DNA from: Lachnospiraceae bacterium
GTDB lineage: Bacteria > Bacteroidota > Bacteroidia > Bacteroidales > Muribaculaceae
Length of the DNA: 43,973 bases
NCBI GenBank assembly: GCA_023663655.1
Contig: JAMPGZ010000009.1
Location: 41,876 to 85,848 of the forward strand
Reading direction: 5' to 3'
The notes beneath the pieces were generated by a model. That model did not search any database. It was not told where the DNA came from and worked only from the letters and a program-made list of their open reading frames with translations. This document shows, one piece after another, positions 18,874 to 26,064 of this stretch. The translations under genes and the position numbers were made by a program. Every line of letters begins with the position of its first letter. Within the stretch, counting starts at the first letter, position 1.

Positions 18874-18898
18874 GATAATAAGTCTAAGTTACCTGATT

Positions 18899-18925
18899 AG
18901 TCCAATTGGTCCAATTAGTCTAATT
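18899..18925 (+). repeat. Three tandem copies of a 9-bp repeat
   Basis: AGTCCAATT, GGTCCAATT and AGTCTAATT follow one another without a gap; each differs from the first by one base. The repeat lies between the ddl stop and its downstream hairpin. Its role is unknown; short tandem repeats of this kind can vary in copy number by slippage. Confidence 0.65.
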
Positions 18926-18945: not shown

Positions 18946-18983
18946 TTACGGCATCAATGGGAGAATTCTCATTGATGCCGTAA
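18946..18983. terminator. Strong hairpin downstream of ddl
   Basis: TTACGGCATCAATG (18946-18959) and CATTGATGCCGTAA (18970-18983) are perfectly complementary over 14 bp, and the inner bases can pair further if two G residues bulge. There is no clear T-tract, but the place, between the ddl stop and the promoter of the next operon, favours a transcription-ending or mRNA-protecting role. Confidence 0.55.
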
Positions 18984-19038
18984 CTATTAACTATAGTTAA
19001 TTAACTAAAAGTATTAGTTTAAACTAAAGTTTATAGTT
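18982..19038 (+). promoter_or_regulatory. Three 17-bp operator-like dyads (AACTA-N7-TAGTT)
   Basis: AACTATTAACTATAGTT (18982-18998), AACTAAAAGTATTAGTT (19003-19019) and AACTAAAGTTTATAGTT (19022-19038) share the frame AACTA, seven bases, TAGTT. Their starts are 21 and 19 bases apart, about two helix turns. The third abuts the -7 element. BlaI/MecI repressors bind dyads of this size as dimers and usually control their own operon, and a blaI-like gene is the second gene downstream. Assignment as BlaI operators is inference. Overlapping perfect palindromes are at 18986-19001 and 19014-19027. Confidence 0.65.
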
Positions 19039-19046
19039 TATATTTG
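19039..19046 (+). promoter_or_regulatory. -7 element of the TlpA-BlaI-BlaR1 operon promoter
   Basis: TATATTTG matches TAnnTTTG exactly. No good TTTG is seen 19-21 bases upstream; that stretch is taken by the dyads. Transcription would begin near 19053, which rules out the TTG at 19044 as start codon and favours the ATG at 19062. Confidence 0.55.
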
Positions 19047-19061
19047 CAATATATAAAGTAT

Positions 19062-20219
19062 ATGACCATGACTAAATTTGCCTTGAAAAAACATATCGGT
19101 ATTATTGCCGCAGGATTAATGGTGATAAACGCGAGTGCAATTGATAAAGAACCTTACCGGCTTGATGTGGAGTTGACCGGTTTTCCCGACAGCACTCAGT
19201 TTGTGCTCACTGACTTCAAAAACCTGAGTGATACCGCTATGCTTATCAGTGGCAAGGCTTCGTTTGAGATTGACATTCCTGAAGTTCCGGGTGAAGATTG
19301 CCCTATTGATCTTCGTCTTGCCGGTCCGGTGCCGCTGTCGCCCGGATACTGCTCAATGTATATGCTCGGACAAAATGGCTATCACGAGAGAGTGACAGGC
19401 AACAGAAGCCAATTCCGCGGATATAAGTTGAAAATAGAGGGGGCGCCATGGAGTGATGAACTGATGACATGGGGGAGCATTGTCGGCGACAAGGAAATTG
19501 AGGAGCGCGCATTGCGTGACTCGATGAACATTACTACCGGTAAGGAACAGCGTAGAATTTATGAAAAAATGCGTAGATTGAAGTCGGAGATAGACTCGTT
19601 GAATATCGCGTTTATCGAGAATAATCCCAATTCATTTGTGGCATTGAAATTTTTTTCATTTTGGTATAAAACCGCGTTTCCGCATGAACGCTTGACGGCG
19701 TTATATAATCGTCTTGAGCCGAAATACCGCGATTCAAAGCATGGTAAGCTTATGGCTAAACTTGTCAATAAAAAGTGTATAGAAGTAGGTGATAAATTGG
19801 CTGATTACGATATTGCCGGTACGATAGCCGATGGCTCTTACTTTAAGCTGAGTGATGTGAAAAATGATTATATAGCTCTCTTTTTTACCAGTGCGGGATG
19901 TGGTCCATGCATAGAGATGAAAAAGGAGATTGAAGCTCTTGATTGCAGCGATCGAATTGCAATAGTGGGGTATGTGATAGACGATGACCCTATGTTTTAT
20001 AAGATGGCTGTGAATAGGAGCGGAGGAAAAATTCCATTGATACAGACCGACGGCGAGCGGTGGAAAAGTGATGCCGAATTGAAATATGGTGTTGAGGCGA
20101 TTCCGAGCTTGTATATTTTCGGTCCTGATAGAACTCTTCTTGAAAAGACAAGGGGCTGGAGAGCAGGAAAAGTGAAACAAATGTTTGAAAAATATATCGA
20201 TGCTAAAGTATCGGATTAA
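19062..20219 (+). CDS. Exported thioredoxin-like protein with DUF4369-like N-terminus
   Basis: The 385-residue protein starts with a signal peptide (about residues 1-27). About residues 28-130 form a beta-rich domain resembling DUF4369, which often precedes TlpA-like thioredoxin domains in Bacteroidetes. The C-terminal thioredoxin fold has the redox motif CGPC in FFTSAGCGPCIEMKKEI near residue 280, and YGVEAIPSLYIFGPD provides the cis-proline. It probably acts in the periplasm as a thiol-disulfide reductase. The start could also be the ATG at 19068. Being first in an operon with a BlaI-type repressor and BlaR1-type sensor, it is the likely effector of that circuit rather than a beta-lactamase, which is absent. 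Confidence 0.78.
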   Translation: MTMTKFALKKHIGIIAAGLMVINASAIDKEPYRLDVELTGFPDSTQFVLTDFKNLSDTAMLISGKASFEIDIPEVPGEDCPIDLRLAGPVPLSPGYCSMYMLGQNGYHERVTGNRSQFRGYKLKIEGAPWSDELMTWGSIVGDKEIEERALRDSMNITTGKEQRRIYEKMRRLKSEIDSLNIAFIENNPNSFVALKFFSFWYKTAFPHERLTALYNRLEPKYRDSKHGKLMAKLVNKKCIEVGDKLADYDIAGTIADGSYFKLSDVKNDYIALFFTSAGCGPCIEMKKEIEALDCSDRIAIVGYVIDDDPMFYKMAVNRSGGKIPLIQTDGERWKSDAELKYGVEAIPSLYIFGPDRTLLEKTRGWRAGKVKQMFEKYIDAKVSD

Positions 20220-20233
20220 AAAATAATGATTAT

Positions 20234-20602
20234 ATGAAAGAATTGACAGCAAAAGAAGAGGAGATAATGAATTATTTCTGGCAGCATGGAAAATTGTTTG
20301 TCAAGGATATTCTGGAATTTTACGATGATCCGAAACCTCATTTCAATACTATATCCACTATAGTGCGTGGACTTGAGGAGAAAGGTTATCTCGGGCATGA
20401 AGCGTTTGGCAAGACCTATCGTTACCATGCTGTAGTAAGTGCGTCGGAACTCGGATTAAAATCAATGAAATCAATAGTGTCGCGTTTTTTCAAGAACTCT
20501 TATCTTGGAGTGGTTTCCTCATTTGTAAAGGATGAAGAAATTTCTATTGATGAGCTTCGCAGGCTTATTGACGAGGTAGAGAAAAATAACAATAAAAATT
20601 AA
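20234..20602 (+). CDS. BlaI/MecI/CopY-family transcriptional repressor
   Basis: The 122-residue protein is a typical BlaI/MecI-type repressor. It has an N-terminal winged helix (LTAKEEEIMNYFWQHG, then HFNTISTIVRGLEEKGYL with the recognition helix, then the wing FGKTYRYHAVV) and a short C-terminal dimerisation tail. Family members bind DNA dyads as dimers and are removed by proteolysis when the partner sensor is activated. It lies 14 bases after the thioredoxin-like gene and 5 bases before the sensor gene. The three dyads upstream of this operon are its likely targets. Confidence 0.88.
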   Translation: MKELTAKEEEIMNYFWQHGKLFVKDILEFYDDPKPHFNTISTIVRGLEEKGYLGHEAFGKTYRYHAVVSASELGLKSMKSIVSRFFKNSYLGVVSSFVKDEEISIDELRRLIDEVEKNNNKN

Positions 20603-20607
20603 TCGCC

Positions 20608-22458
20608 ATGGGAGCATTGCTGGCATATTCATTTTGGGTAGGGTGCATTCTTATACCACTTTACTTTGTCGTCAAGTTAGGTCTTAGCGGCACTACTTTT
20701 CATTCATTCACCCGCAAGATTATACTTGGATGTTATGGGTTGGCTCTATTGTTCCCGTTGGTTTCCGATATTGAGTTTGCTCCATCCGGTGTGCCTGTCT
20801 CAGATATGACATTTGATCTGCCGACTTATTCTGAATATTCTGAATTGCTGTCAGCGAGTGAGGTTGTGCCTCTTCCGGAGCTTCCATTATGGATTGTTGC
20901 CGCAATATCTGTCTATGCGGCAGGACTGGTGTTTTTTGCAATCAGGGAACTGATAATATTAATACGTATGTTCCGGTTGTTTTCACATTGCGAGGCGTTA
21001 AGTGTAAATTCACGATGGAAACTCCTTGTCCACGATTGTGACGATGTGGCACCTTTCAGTTGGGCTGACCGCATCGTGATTTCCCAGAAGGATTTTTTAG
21101 ACGGCGGTGACACTATTATCGCACATGAATCGGCACACTTGGAACGCTTTCATTCCGCGGACTTGCTGCTTGCCGAAATTGTGGCTATACTCACATGGTA
21201 TAATCCGGCATCATGGCTCATGCGTGATGAGCTTTGCACAGTGCATGAATATGAGACTGACGATGCTGTGCTTCGTCAAGGGTTCAATGCGCGTGATTAT
21301 CAATTATTGCTAATAAAAAAGGCGGTTGGCTCCAGATTCCCGTCCATTGCCAACAGCCTTGATCATTCTAACTTATCTAAACGTATTAAAATGATGTTAC
21401 AAAAAAGAACCTCCCCGGGTCGCCGCTGGATAGCAGCCGCAACCCTTCCGGCAGTCGCACTGACAGCCGTGATGTTGTCAACCGACAGTGTGGCTTCCAC
21501 TATCACCGAGATTGCAGAAGCCAAAGTTACAGAATTTTTTGCTAATGAGCAAGCTGAAACCACTTATGGAACAGTTGTTGAAGAAGCTGTTGAAATGGTT
21601 CCGGAAGAATCTCAATCTCTTGGCTTTGCTGACGAATTAAAGGATAGTGCGACAGATGCTGCCATTCCGTCACGCGTGGTTTCTCCTGCGGTTAAAGACG
21701 AGAGTTCAGCGGTTTCTGAGCCGGAAAAGACAGAGCCTAAGGCTAATGACAGCAAGAGACAGAAGGATGGTGAAAAGATTTTTTCATCAGTGGAGAAAAT
21801 GCCGCAATATCCCGGTGGTGATGCCGCACTCCTCGAATTTGTTAGGTCAGAGCTGAAATATCCTGAAGATGCTATTAGAGATACTATTCAGGGAAGAGTC
21901 ATTGTGGGTTTTGTCGTTAAATCAGACGGCTCGGTAACTGATGTGCAGGTTCTGCGTGGCAAGCATCCATCGCTTGATCAGGAAGCTGTGAGAGTTGTAA
22001 AGGCAATTGACTATATGATTCCGGGCACGTTTAAGGGTGAACCGGTAAATGTGCGCTATGTGTTGCCGCTCACTTTCCACCTTAAAGAAATACCGGAAAA
22101 ACCGGCACCAACCGATGCTGAACTGGAAGGGAAGATATTTAATGCCGTAGAGCAGATGCCTCAATATCCGGGCGGAGAGAAAGCATTGCTGACCGATCTG
22201 ATGAAAAATCTGAAACATCCTGATTCCGATGTGGAGGGCAGGGTAATCATCAAGTTTGTCGTAACATCATCCGGATCGGTTGGGGATGTCAGCATAATAC
22301 GAAGCCTTACTCCTGAAATGGATAAAGCCGCTGAAGATGCTGTTAAGACATTGCATTTTGAGCCGGGACGTATGAATGGGAAACCGGTGAATGTGTATTA
22401 TACCCTTCCGGTCACATTTAAAAATACATCAAAATCGGATGCGGCGACAAAGATGTAG
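20608..22458 (+). CDS. BlaR1/MecR1-type M56 metalloprotease with two TonB C-terminal domains
   Basis: The 616-residue membrane protein begins with about three transmembrane segments. The M56 peptidase domain follows, with the zinc motif HESAH (residues 173-177) and the downstream HEYETDDAVL. A further transmembrane segment lies near residues 271-295. After an acidic linker come two TonB C-terminal-like domains, at about 393-494 and 509-611, each starting with the pattern MPQYPGG. The classical beta-lactam-binding sensor domain is absent, so the signal must differ. M56 proteins of this family cleave or inactivate their partner BlaI repressor. The two TonB-like domains, exposed to the periplasm, could sense or touch an envelope partner; this is inference. 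Confidence 0.85.
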   Translation: MGALLAYSFWVGCILIPLYFVVKLGLSGTTFHSFTRKIILGCYGLALLFPLVSDIEFAPSGVPVSDMTFDLPTYSEYSELLSASEVVPLPELPLWIVAAISVYAAGLVFFAIRELIILIRMFRLFSHCEALSVNSRWKLLVHDCDDVAPFSWADRIVISQKDFLDGGDTIIAHESAHLERFHSADLLLAEIVAILTWYNPASWLMRDELCTVHEYETDDAVLRQGFNARDYQLLLIKKAVGSRFPSIANSLDHSNLSKRIKMMLQKRTSPGRRWIAAATLPAVALTAVMLSTDSVASTITEIAEAKVTEFFANEQAETTYGTVVEEAVEMVPEESQSLGFADELKDSATDAAIPSRVVSPAVKDESSAVSEPEKTEPKANDSKRQKDGEKIFSSVEKMPQYPGGDAALLEFVRSELKYPEDAIRDTIQGRVIVGFVVKSDGSVTDVQVLRGKHPSLDQEAVRVVKAIDYMIPGTFKGEPVNVRYVLPLTFHLKEIPEKPAPTDAELEGKIFNAVEQMPQYPGGEKALLTDLMKNLKHPDSDVEGRVIIKFVVTSSGSVGDVSIIRSLTPEMDKAAEDAVKTLHFEPGRMNGKPVNVYYTLPVTFKNTSKSDAATKM

Positions 22459-22617: not shown

Positions 22618-24369
22618 ATGGCAAATGCTATTAATAAAAACGAAATTTGGAACAATGATGGAGAAATCTTAGGAAATGCTCCTCGCTGGGCTGCCTATCG
22701 TAAACAACTTAACAGTGAATTTCCCGCTCCCTTCAGCGGAGGCAAAGATACTCTTGCCGAATCCATGAAAAAGGCGGTTGAAATGATTGATTCCTTGCGT
22801 CCGGCTCCCGACGGACCTGCTTTCCTCGGAGGCAGTTCAAAATTGGATTATACATATCCTGATGTTAAGGACTGCAAGATACCGCAAAAGGCGGCAACAC
22901 TTGACGGGGTTATTTCCGATTGCGTTAAATTATTCAATGGTATGCCAGATGTGTCAAGTCCGCTTACCATGTCAAATGTGTGGCCACAGCCTAATAATGC
23001 CAGCATCATAGCATCGATGCTTCCATTGATTTTCGCTCCTAATATTATAGAAGGAGAGTATGCCTGGAATGTCCATAAGGCAGAACTTGAAAGTGGAGGT
23101 ATGCTTGCCGATTTGTTTGGTTGGGAATCGGAAAAGGCAGGTGCCGTTTACACTTATGGCGGTTCCGGATGTTGGCTTTATGGTCTTAAGTATGCTATCA
23201 CAAGAGTTTTCCCCGGCTCGCGAGAGAAAGGAGTGAGAGTGGATGGAAAGGTTTTGGTATCAGCTCAGGCACATTATTGCCGACAGAATGCAACAGACTG
23301 GACCGGTCTCGGAATGGACAATGTGATTGTAATTCCTACCGATCCTGAAAGCAACAAGATGGATCTTGTCGCTCTTGAGGCTACTCTTAAAGATTTGACA
23401 GAAAAGAATATTCCGGTTATTGAAGTCGTATGTACGATGGGCACCACTGATGCCAGTGTGTTTGACCCGATTTCGGAAGTGCGTCGTCTTCTTGACAAGT
23501 ATCCTAATAAAGCTCCTTATGGCAAGGCATTGCTTTATGCCGACGCTGTGTGCGGATGGTCATGGCAAGTGTTCCGCTACTATGATTTTGAAGCTAATCC
23601 TCTTGGATTTTCAGCTGAGGCTCTCAATGTAATCAAGAAAAACTATAAGGAGATTAAGGGTATCCATGAAGCTGATGCAGTAGGCATCGATTTCCATAAA
23701 TTTGGATTCTCTCCTTACATCAGCAGTTGCTTCCTTTATAAAGATGCGGCAGAATTTGAGAATCTTATGCGAAGAGGTTCTTATGCCTATCTTCAGGAGG
23801 TGACGCCGTATAATCCTATGTACTATACTCTGGAGGTGTCACGTACGGCAGCCGGATCTCTCGCCGGATGGGCTACGCTTAAATATCTTGGCATAGAGGG
23901 TTTCCAAGCCGTGCTTGGAGGAATACTTGAAGTGCGTCTTTATATGGACTCGTTGATTGAGCAGCAAACTGAGATGGTAATGGCTGATTCTGATGACACC
24001 GGATTCATCACTCTGTTCCGAGTATATCCCAAGGGTACTGACGCACGTCAGCAATTCTCCAATGAATTGAATGATCGCGGACATCGTGCCGATCTTATCG
24101 CCAATAACCGTTTCCAGCAGGCTGTGGGAGAGAAGATGTTCCATTGGTATCTTGAAGGGCACAAGATCAATGGCAAACCGACACCGCATATAGCCTATAG
24201 CACCGGATTCCGCACCGCATCATGGAATAAAGATGGAAGTGATGCAGAAGGCACTGTCTATGCGCTTAAGACTTATCCAATGAATGTCTACAATAATCCG
24301 GTGGTGATGGATCATGTTATAACCTGTGTCCTTGCCGCCCGTGATGAAGTAGAGAAAGAAATGAACTGA
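22618..24369 (+). CDS. Group II PLP-dependent amino-acid decarboxylase
   Basis: The 583-residue enzyme belongs to the group II (glutamate/aromatic) decarboxylase family. Visible landmarks are YTYGGSGCWLYGLKYA, the cofactor-stacking His219 in SAQAHYC, VVCTMGTTDASVFDPI, Asp309 in YADAVCGW (pairs with the PLP ring nitrogen) and Lys361 in DFHKFGFSP (Schiff base). It is over 100 residues longer than the standard glutamate decarboxylase and has unusual residues around the classical motifs, so the substrate is uncertain: glutamate, tyrosine or another amino acid. The downstream GadC-like antiporter suggests glutamate/GABA-type exchange. The reaction would consume a proton and produce an amine and CO2. 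Confidence 0.78.
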   Translation: MANAINKNEIWNNDGEILGNAPRWAAYRKQLNSEFPAPFSGGKDTLAESMKKAVEMIDSLRPAPDGPAFLGGSSKLDYTYPDVKDCKIPQKAATLDGVISDCVKLFNGMPDVSSPLTMSNVWPQPNNASIIASMLPLIFAPNIIEGEYAWNVHKAELESGGMLADLFGWESEKAGAVYTYGGSGCWLYGLKYAITRVFPGSREKGVRVDGKVLVSAQAHYCRQNATDWTGLGMDNVIVIPTDPESNKMDLVALEATLKDLTEKNIPVIEVVCTMGTTDASVFDPISEVRRLLDKYPNKAPYGKALLYADAVCGWSWQVFRYYDFEANPLGFSAEALNVIKKNYKEIKGIHEADAVGIDFHKFGFSPYISSCFLYKDAAEFENLMRRGSYAYLQEVTPYNPMYYTLEVSRTAAGSLAGWATLKYLGIEGFQAVLGGILEVRLYMDSLIEQQTEMVMADSDDTGFITLFRVYPKGTDARQQFSNELNDRGHRADLIANNRFQQAVGEKMFHWYLEGHKINGKPTPHIAYSTGFRTASWNKDGSDAEGTVYALKTYPMNVYNNPVVMDHVITCVLAARDEVEKEMN

Positions 24370-24386
24370 TAAAACGCATATTGAAT

Positions 24387-24422
24387 TCGGGCGGGAGCAC
24401 CATCGAGGGAGATCCCGCCCGA
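24387..24422 (+). terminator. GC-rich hairpin between decarboxylase and antiporter genes
   Basis: TCGGGCGGGA (24387-24396) and TCCCGCCCGA (24413-24422) pair perfectly over 10 bp around a 16-base loop. No T-tract follows. It may partly stop transcription or protect the upstream mRNA, giving less antiporter than decarboxylase. Confidence 0.55.
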
Positions 24423-24447
24423 TGTCATATAATCAAATAATTTGTTT

Positions 24448-26064
24448 ATGAGCGATAATACAAACAAAGTTCCTGAACCGGCGACAACCGCTTCAGGAAG
24501 AAAGAAGATCGTTTCGACGGCAAAGGGGTCAATAACTATGATTGCGATGGCAATATTGATAGTGACTTCGGTGCTTAGTTTACGCGGTTTGCCGTCAGAA
24601 GCAAAGTTTGGGGTGCAATCAATATTCTATTATCTATTTGCTGCAATAGTATTTTTGCTCCCGTTTTCATTGGTGTGTGCTGAACTCGCGTCCACTTACA
24701 CTAAAAGCGGTGGACTCTATCGGTGGGTTTCAGAAGCATTCGGTCCTCGCTGGGGATGGACGGCAATGTATCTTGAATGGCAGACCATAATATTCTGGTT
24801 TCCGACCGTATTGATGTTTGGAGCCGCATCGCTTGCCTATATATTCTGGCCTGAAAGTTTTGACAGAGCATTGGCATCAAATAAGATATACACACTTGTC
24901 ATTGCGATGATAATTTATTGGGCAGCGACTCTTAATTCATTCCGAGGGCAGAAACTGGCGAATAAACTAAGTACGCTCGGGGGTACATTCGGCACAATTA
25001 TTCCGGGAGCTTTGCTATTGATTCTCGGAGTCTTGTATTTGTGTTTCGGAAAGCCGATACAGCTTACTCCTATGCCGTTTTTCCCTGACTTCAGCCACTT
25101 GAGCACTATTGTGCTTGCCGCGTCGATATTCCTGTTTTATGGAGGTATGGAGATCCAGTCGGTCCACATCAATGACATGAGCAATCCGTCAAGGGATTTT
25201 CCGAAGGCTATATTCCTTGCCATTGTAGTCATTGTCGTGGTCTATGCTCTTGGTACCTTGGTGATAGGAGAGGTTATCCCGACTGATAATATTAATTTGC
25301 TCCAGTCTCTTTTGGTCGCCTACAATGCCTTGTGGAAGAGTTTCGGTCTGAGTTGGCTTGGAAATGTGATGGCTGTGTTTATCATGTTTGGTGTCATCGG
25401 TCAAGTAAGCGCCCTTGTCACCGGACCTGCTACCGGACTTATGGCTGTGGCACAGTCGGGCTATCTTCCGAGATCAATGCAGAAGGTCAATAAGAATGGA
25501 ATCAACAAGCCTATTTTGATAGTCGAGGGTATATTCGTCAGCGTGCTGACACTCGTGCTGCTTGTCCTTCCTACAGTAGAATCGGCATATCAGATTATGT
25601 CGCAGATGGCGACTATAATTTATCTTATCATGGTTCTGATGATTTATGGCGCATTTTTAAGATTGCGACGCACTCAGCCCAATAAACAACGAGGCTTTAA
25701 AGTGCCGGGAGGAAATTTGGGCAAATGGATTGTCAGCATAGTGGGTATGGCAGGAGCGATTTTGGCTCTTGTGTTGAGCTATATTCCACCGGCTCAGATT
25801 TCTACCGGAAGCCCTGTGGTGTATGTAGGAATAATTGTGATAGGGGTAGGTGTGTTTGTCGCTTTGCCACTGGTGGTCTACGCCAATCGTAAGCCGTCAT
25901 GGCGAAATCCTGATGCCCATTTCTATCCTTTTGACTGGCAGATTGAAGGACGTAAGCCGTGGGAAGAATCAAAATGGACTCCCGGATATGAACCAAGCGA
26001 GGAACAGGTTGAGCAGGCGGAATCACAGGCGATATGTGATCATGCAACACATAAGCATTGTTGA
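24448..26064 (+). CDS. APC-superfamily amino-acid antiporter, GadC-like
   Basis: The 538-residue protein has about twelve transmembrane segments and resembles GadC glutamate:GABA antiporters along its length. The pattern SVHINDMSNPSRDFPKA matches the E. coli GadC region with NEMSNPGRDYP, and FFPDF, GPATGLMAVAQ and RGFKVPGG are further shared landmarks. The C-terminal tail is rich in charged residues and His. It would exchange an external amino acid for the decarboxylation product from the preceding enzyme. A TTG two codons upstream is possible, but the ATG is preferred. A hairpin separates it from the decarboxylase gene, and it ends before a bidirectional hairpin facing trkH. Confidence 0.82.
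   Translation: MSDNTNKVPEPATTASGRKKIVSTAKGSITMIAMAILIVTSVLSLRGLPSEAKFGVQSIFYYLFAAIVFLLPFSLVCAELASTYTKSGGLYRWVSEAFGPRWGWTAMYLEWQTIIFWFPTVLMFGAASLAYIFWPESFDRALASNKIYTLVIAMIIYWAATLNSFRGQKLANKLSTLGGTFGTIIPGALLLILGVLYLCFGKPIQLTPMPFFPDFSHLSTIVLAASIFLFYGGMEIQSVHINDMSNPSRDFPKAIFLAIVVIVVVYALGTLVIGEVIPTDNINLLQSLLVAYNALWKSFGLSWLGNVMAVFIMFGVIGQVSALVTGPATGLMAVAQSGYLPRSMQKVNKNGINKPILIVEGIFVSVLTLVLLVLPTVESAYQIMSQMATIIYLIMVLMIYGAFLRLRRTQPNKQRGFKVPGGNLGKWIVSIVGMAGAILALVLSYIPPAQISTGSPVVYVGIIVIGVGVFVALPLVVYANRKPSWRNPDAHFYPFDWQIEGRKPWEESKWTPGYEPSEEQVEQAESQAICDHATHKHC

Follow-up and report, generated by a model that had tools for sequence, protein, structure and literature searches.

A gene for a BlaI-type repressor and one for a BlaR1-like protein lie behind three closely spaced inverted repeats in a Muribaculaceae genome, and this locus raises the question of what reads the repeats and how far they represent an operator class of their own. 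We analyzed the whole 43,973-nucleotide stretch of DNA that surrounds them, hereafter the window. A preliminary description had seen there an autoregulated switch with three cooperative operators, placed at the promoter of a TlpA-BlaI-BlaR1 operon and possibly typical of Bacteroidales.

The three dyads and the promoter

The dyad AACTA-N7-TAGTT is present in three exact copies at 18982-18998, 19003-19019 and 19022-19038, to which no strand is assigned. The second copy lies 4 bp past the first and the third 2 bp past the second, with starts at 18982, 19003 and 19022, that is, in steps of 21 and 19 bp. The last copy ends at 19038 and abuts a -7 element of the Bacteroidetes type, TATATTTG, at 19039-19046 of the forward strand; we take TAnnTTTG to be the consensus of this element. 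The copies, their steps, the contact with the -7 element and the interval 18982-19046 are therefore as the preliminary description had them.

When two mismatches were allowed, the pattern was found 15 times in the window for 13.57 expected, hence without enrichment: the signal resides in the exact copies and not in such degenerate ones. The 2.9-Mb genome contains four exact sites, three of them at the window array, and seven copies of the backwards control pattern. Across the whole genome, no further pair of dyads in tandem at 4 bp was found when up to three mismatches were allowed (control, 0). The fourth exact site, on contig C2, is located between a peptidase-like gene (assigned by eye) and a tRNA-Leu gene of the other strand, with no recognisable promoter at this position. 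A regulon of arrays in this genome was thus considered and rejected, given the lack of another array and the position of the fourth site.

A 17-bp inverted repeat at 18946-18983, with arms 94 percent complementary and separated by 4 nt, reaches into the first dyad and ends there. It may serve as terminator for the D-Ala-D-Ala ligase gene upstream (ddl), although it lacks a following T-run. Between ddl and this hairpin, three 9-nt direct repeats resembling ATTAGTCCA are observed at 18896-18922.

The genes behind the array

All three genes of the presumed operon are on the forward strand. The first one (19062-20219) encodes a TlpA-like protein of 385 aa with a thioredoxin fold and a C-G-P-C motif; its start codon is likely the ATG at 19062 (or 19068). 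Its matches to thioredoxin-fold Pfam families are weak and all under the curated cut-offs, and no NCBIfam model matched it. After 14 bp follows blaI (20234-20602), coding for a Penicillinase_R repressor of 122 aa that matches PF03965 with an E-value of 1.6e-27, spanning 1-114 of 115, and is the sole match to this family in the genome. It also retrieves MecI structure chains in phmmer (E-values 3.4e-12 and 8.3e-12) and matches the NCBIfam CopY, MecI and BlaI models under their cut-offs.

The blaR1-like gene (20608-22458) starts 5 bp after blaI. Its product combines an M56 metallopeptidase (Peptidase_M56, E-value 1.2e-09), with an HESAH sequence of the HExxH type in the translation, and two TonB_C stretches (E-value 7.2e-35). 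Neither Pfam nor NCBIfam revealed a penicillin-binding sensor domain, the former giving M56 and TonB_C only and the latter TonB-type models only. A beta-lactam signal is not implied, because no such domain was found in the partner of BlaI. Further downstream (22618-26064), a gene for a pyridoxal-dependent decarboxylase precedes a gene that we take to be antiporter-like, and the two presumably resemble the decarboxylase pairs of amino-acid-dependent acid resistance.

Relatives in the genus

BlaI matches were obtained in 8 of 14 genomes of the genus. Besides the window's, all five closest BlaI genes are preceded by N7 dyads (that is, with a 7-bp spacer): the 21/19 spacing recurs unchanged in the arrays of G595, G594 and G600, and G025 and G591 have two dyads that are 19 and 41 bp apart, respectively. 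Among the 11 more distant BlaI matches of the genus, none has N7 dyads and one (L417) has an N6 dyad. Half-sites are identical between genus members and spacer letters differ, as expected of a protein-binding site.

The comparison also bears on the first gene. In G594, which has no tlpA at this place, the array stands between blaI and a sequence matching the end of the window's ddl (by eye). G595 has two tlpA-like genes between array and blaI, sharing 48 and 49 percent identity with that of the window, and it is the only one of the 14 genomes in which a tlpA homologue was seen at this position. An ancestral place of tlpA in the operon was rejected, since among the other fetched loci phmmer gave relatives in L026, L033 and L042 only. 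Of the proposed TlpA-BlaI-BlaR1 operon, the BlaI/BlaR1-type pair behind the dyads thus holds, but the tlpA-like gene is a passenger, inserted behind the operator in this lineage.

Operators of other Bacteroidales blaI genes

A BlaI match is present in 247 of the 393 Bacteroidales genomes sampled. Exact N7 dyads are found 5' of blaI in 30/30 loci when the 30 highest-ranking genomes are each represented by their best match, window included. We then considered 107 upstream regions: 29 of these 30 top loci (the window being left out), 76 loci from lower in the list, and L341 and L344. The 76 were drawn among the matches listed and comprise, for some genomes, a second match (e.g. L325), and L341 is a second read of L023, counted both in the 107 regions and in the N7 counts for geometry and tree. 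The N7 dyad occurs in 47 of the 107 regions and its N6 counterpart in 44, for 0.16 and 0.08 expected from resampled sequence. Over spacers of 0 to 15, N5 and N8 were each found in no region and any other length in at most one, with expectations below 0.2. One locus (L032) holds both forms and 17 of the 107 regions neither exact form. When the 60 regions lacking N7 were searched for inverted repeats without a preset pattern, AACTA-N6-TAGTT came out on top (42/60 versus 0.10 in shuffles). The 18 rows without an exact dyad, one of which comes from the scan described below, divide into eight with an N6 dyad bearing one mismatch, five with two-mismatch dyads only and five with none.

Conservation at related Bacteroidales blaI-blaR1 promoters, which had been set in advance as the check on the proposed operator, is thus observed both in the top loci and in the wider set. 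An M56 relative is encoded within the fetched locus in 137/138 N7 rows and 40/43 N6 rows that have enough sequence. Judging from these sequence comparisons, the three dyads of the window are very probably the operator of the downstream BlaI/BlaR1-type pair.

Three further observations concern individual loci. L325, from the window's own family and among the closest matches, has N6 and not N7. Five loci (L276, L281, L306, L311 and L318) contain variant N6 dyads in which one half-site is TCGTT in place of TAGTT; these are perhaps a further operator class. In a small BlaI clade (L332, L337 and L338), TACGA/TCGTA-like repeats replace AACTA upstream of blaI (by eye).

Geometry of the arrays

The dyads are repeated every 20 bp in 27 of 34 N6 intervals and every 21 bp in 35 of 48 N7 intervals. 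The gap between dyads is mostly 4 bp in both classes, TAGTT-N4-AACTA being present in 28/43 N6 and 32/46 N7 loci, and it is this same gap, added to a spacer of 6 or 7 bp, that gives most arrays their period of 20 or 21 bp. Twelve N6 and eleven N7 loci have a single exact dyad only.

The -7 box tends to stand in a fixed register with the array. Measured from the last exact dyad, TAnnTTTG lies at -1, 0 or +20 in 64 of the 143 N7 rows; the corresponding positions in the N6 class are +1 or +21, seen in 28 of its 44 rows. No exact TAnnTTTG was found within 40 bp of the last dyad in 68/143 N7 and 11/44 N6 rows. The two positions past AACTA are mostly A or T, C amounting to 0 to 6 percent. The half-site had been described as departing from the known TACA/TGTA core, and this is borne out for the inner CA/TG, which is not kept, the outer part being common to known sites.

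blaI genes outside Bacteroidales

We extended the comparison to 50 blaI genes from outside the order, 30 in fetched loci and 20 picked by hand from the same match list. In the other classes of Bacteroidota, (A/T)ACTA-N6-TAGT(A/T) precedes blaI in 17/17 genes, 16 of them with TACTA, and in the other orders of the class the N6 dyad precedes blaI in 26 of 33 genes. No N7 dyad was found among these 50 genes. The half-site had been put forward as the mark of a Bacteroidales class, which does not stand: ACTA/TAGT with a 6-bp spacer lies before most of the blaI genes sampled in the rest of the phylum. The staphylococcal mec site likewise reads ACTA-N6-TAGT. The N6 geometry is also that of OP1 from Bacillus licheniformis, for which the available text of PMC3305447 gives a BlaI-bound oligonucleotide with TTA-CATATG-TAA, an inward TTA-N6-TAA. 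What sets the window's class apart is one additional base pair in the centre, i.e. the 7-bp spacer. Since N6 prevails outside Bacteroidales and fits OP1, we infer that 6 bp is probably the ancestral spacer of the phylum and 7 bp a derived one. In Capnocytophaga, one locus (L062) carries N7; its BlaI is placed within the Bacteroidales N7 clade, and the locus was perhaps acquired by transfer.

Spacer length and the BlaI tree

In a tree built from 202 BlaI proteins, N6 versus N7 rows amount to three changes. N7 against all other rows gives six changes, where shuffles average 53.4 and 0/500 are as low, in a set of which 97/202 rows come from the N7-selected scan. When the unselected set was joined by the 50 proteins from outside the order, N6/N7 required four changes over 134 rows. 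Both trees are quick ones, built on about 120 columns and with many weak forks. Spacer length largely follows the BlaI branch.

Some rows go against their clade, with N7 in L096, L295, L322 and L344 and N6 in L273, L275 and L325, which suggests secondary switches of the spacer. A tree with a single origin of N7 is 38 log-likelihood units worse without being rejected in the AU test (p 0.148).

Two simple accounts of the split were discarded. We looked for a residue that specifies the spacer: none of the 22 most divergent BlaI columns tracks the main split together with both secondary groups, and these columns follow clade, not spacer length. Strict insulation between paralogues by means of the spacer was rejected as well, since N7 precedes blaI at three loci in G105 and at two in G377.

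Scans for tandem arrays

Two tandem N7 dyads with a gap of 2-6 bp were sought, irrespective of neighbouring genes, across 84,980 genomes of bacteria and archaea; as the N7 pattern itself was used, the resulting rows are uninformative on the N6:N7 ratio. With a BlaI profile built from the loci hits, scanned loci included, blaI was recognised as a reading frame downstream in 101 of the 119 array stretches among the matches listed, with the nearest dyad 11 to 412 bp (median 56) from the matched blaI start. Four more stretches (L067, L077, L105 and L141) have a BlaI-like start at the edge of the fragment, and in L037 the array itself is at the edge. The other 13 of the 119 listed comprise three Bacteroidales arrays at other genes (a weakly thioredoxin-like protein in L048, a TPR protein in L066, and L061), six at TetR_C_33 genes, and four with no assigned neighbour (L076, L087, L110 and L143).

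The TetR_C_33 gene adjoins the array in L078, L103, L112, L130 and L149 and is one gene away in L147. The hosts are Enterococcus, Clostridium, Lentilactobacillus, uncultured Clostridia, Acholeplasmatales and a Chloroflexi bin. In L078, L112 and L130, translations examined by eye show isochorismatase-like or transporter-like genes alongside. The use of AACTA-N7-TAGTT at both TetR and BlaI genes is an apparent convergence of operator sequences. Because TetR_C_33 genes also carry arrays, the dyad motif alone does not identify the protein that binds it.

Within Bacteroidales, the tandem pair (gap 2-6) is present in 32 of 393 genomes and its backwards control in 0/393. The order scan placed 33 of 36 array loci at a blaI operon, positions being cross-checked by hand. 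Of the remaining three, one precedes an M56/TonB_C gene without blaI (G387), one precedes an outer-membrane barrel gene and one is at a paralogous locus (the last two in G055).

Discussion

The sites, their spacing, their conservation, their association with blaI and the link between spacer and lineage are observations, and it is from them that we infer binding, repression, cooperativity and proteolytic release. We are highly confident, though not certain, that the three dyads are sites for BlaI dimers whose stacked occupancy autorepresses tlpA-blaI-blaR1 until the M56 protein drives release. One BlaI dimer would read a pair of AACTA half-sites separated by 7 bp, and the next would follow after 2 or 4 bp. 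With starts 19 or 21 bp apart, about two helical turns, the dimers would lie on roughly the same side of the helix. The last dimer would lie against the -7 box, and the occupied sites could block RNA polymerase and so repress the operon. Phasing makes cooperativity between the stacked dimers plausible. For comparison, pneumococcal CopY has an affinity for two sites that is not significantly above that for one, according to the available text of PMC7253601.

As for release, an outside signal could trigger the M56 protease partner, with cleavage or loss of BlaI as the consequence. In S. aureus, BlaR1 cleaves BlaI at Asn101-Phe102 (PMC9834060, as far as its available text goes), and by analogy the M56 partner suggests a proteolytic release of the same kind. 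The position of the window's protein that is aligned to this site reads S-F. In the Asn101 column, N7 proteins have S, A and T in 51, 29 and 13 percent of cases and N6 proteins have F in 85 percent.

One could wonder whether the dimer site is not the other palindrome of the array, TAGTT-N4-AACTA, the 6- or 7-bp spacer being then the gap between neighbouring dimers. This would explain a spacer that drifts between 6 and 7 while N4 stays constant, and this palindrome is about equally common in the two classes (28/43 and 32/46 loci). Nevertheless, there are 12 N6 and 11 N7 loci with a single exact AACTA-N6/7-TAGTT, the other palindrome is held by just two of the 18 regions lacking an exact dyad, both of which have one-mismatch N6 dyads, and the BlaI-bound OP1 shows the inward TTA-N6-TAA in the text available from PMC3305447. 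We regard this arrangement of the dimers as improbable.

A still slighter chance can be given to another regulator, for instance of the TetR family, binding the array near a blaI gene that would be there by coincidence. The same pattern does occur at TetR_C_33 genes in Firmicutes, Acholeplasmatales and Chloroflexi, but blaI adjoins 101/119 of the listed scan stretches and the spacer class follows the BlaI tree. Finally, the region is AT-rich and partly self-complementary, as would befit plain promoter sequence or an RNA leader structure devoid of repressor function. The dyads are however upstream of the -7 element and should be outside the transcript, and the 44 N6 and 47 N7 regions exceed the 0.08 and 0.16 expected from resampled sequence some hundred-fold, so that we grant this explanation next to no probability. 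The preferred reading remains that of BlaI dimers on the AACTA-N7-TAGTT dyads.

Much of this layout has a precedent in Firmicutes, namely the type of half-site, the paired sites and the 7-bp spacing. Like OP1-OP3 of B. licheniformis and the staphylococcal bla/mec operators, the window has three repressor sites in its control region, and a 6-bp dyad spacer is known from these systems. Unlike them, it has no inner CA/TG and a spacer of 7; its operon contains no beta-lactamase and its partner no detected penicillin-binding domain. The nearest parallel is found in Clostridium thermocellum, where BlaI_0696 and BlaI_1845, studied by DAP-seq and by single-site gel shifts, have the half-sites GTCTAT and GACTAT, with autoregulation and small regulons (PMC8457756, available text). 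At the promoter of its own gene, BlaI_0696 has ordered pairs of GTCTAT-N5-ATAGAC (PMC8457756), which amounts to CTA-N7-TAG, the spacing of the window. This is nonetheless a Firmicute, with other outer bases and two dyads instead of three, and the available text of that study holds no clade-wide comparison. Regarding the proposed Bacteroidales operator class, the 7-bp spacer does mark the window's class, but the spacing itself has this clostridial precedent (PMC8457756, same text).

CopY/CopR belong to the same repressor superfamily as the window's BlaI. According to the available text of PMC7253601, their cop box, RNYKACANNYGTMRNY, is a 16-base operator and two operators are found in 67 of 88 upstream sequences; they differ from the window's BlaI by their TACA/TGTA core, by copper sensing and by a regulation through metal and not through a protease. 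The TetR_C_33-linked arrays of Firmicutes and Chloroflexi share the dyad and the tandem layout, with a TetR-family regulator as neighbour, and are presumably convergent with the BlaI arrays. For Mycobacterium BlaI, the available text of PMC12565901 prints no motif letters. Among the literature matches listed, none names an operator for a Bacteroidota BlaI. As far as the listed literature shows, the Bacteroidota BlaI operator, the spacer classes that follow the tree and the common gap between dyads are new.

With regard to the two spacer lengths, we lean towards a heritable switch of one base pair, with a 6-bp spacer in most of the sampled phylum and a 7-bp one in a large branch of Bacteroidales. 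The half-site ACTA/TAGT would have been kept, as would the 4-bp gap that is usual between dyads, and the lattice would have gone from 20 to 21 bp while tending to its register with the -7 box. Under such a switch the geometry of the dimer must have changed, local switches in both directions would be possible, and spacer length might to some extent separate paralogous BlaI circuits within one cell.

The operator motif makes the BlaI regulons of Bacteroidales readable from sequence. The N6/N7 split offers a compact natural experiment on how spacing shifts jointly in a dimeric repressor and in its operators, and at the window's locus a thioredoxin-like gene has been placed under an existing repressor switch. 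The other genes found at arrays, coding for an M56/TonB_C protein without blaI, an outer-membrane barrel and a weakly thioredoxin-like protein, point to functions in the envelope and not to beta-lactamase.
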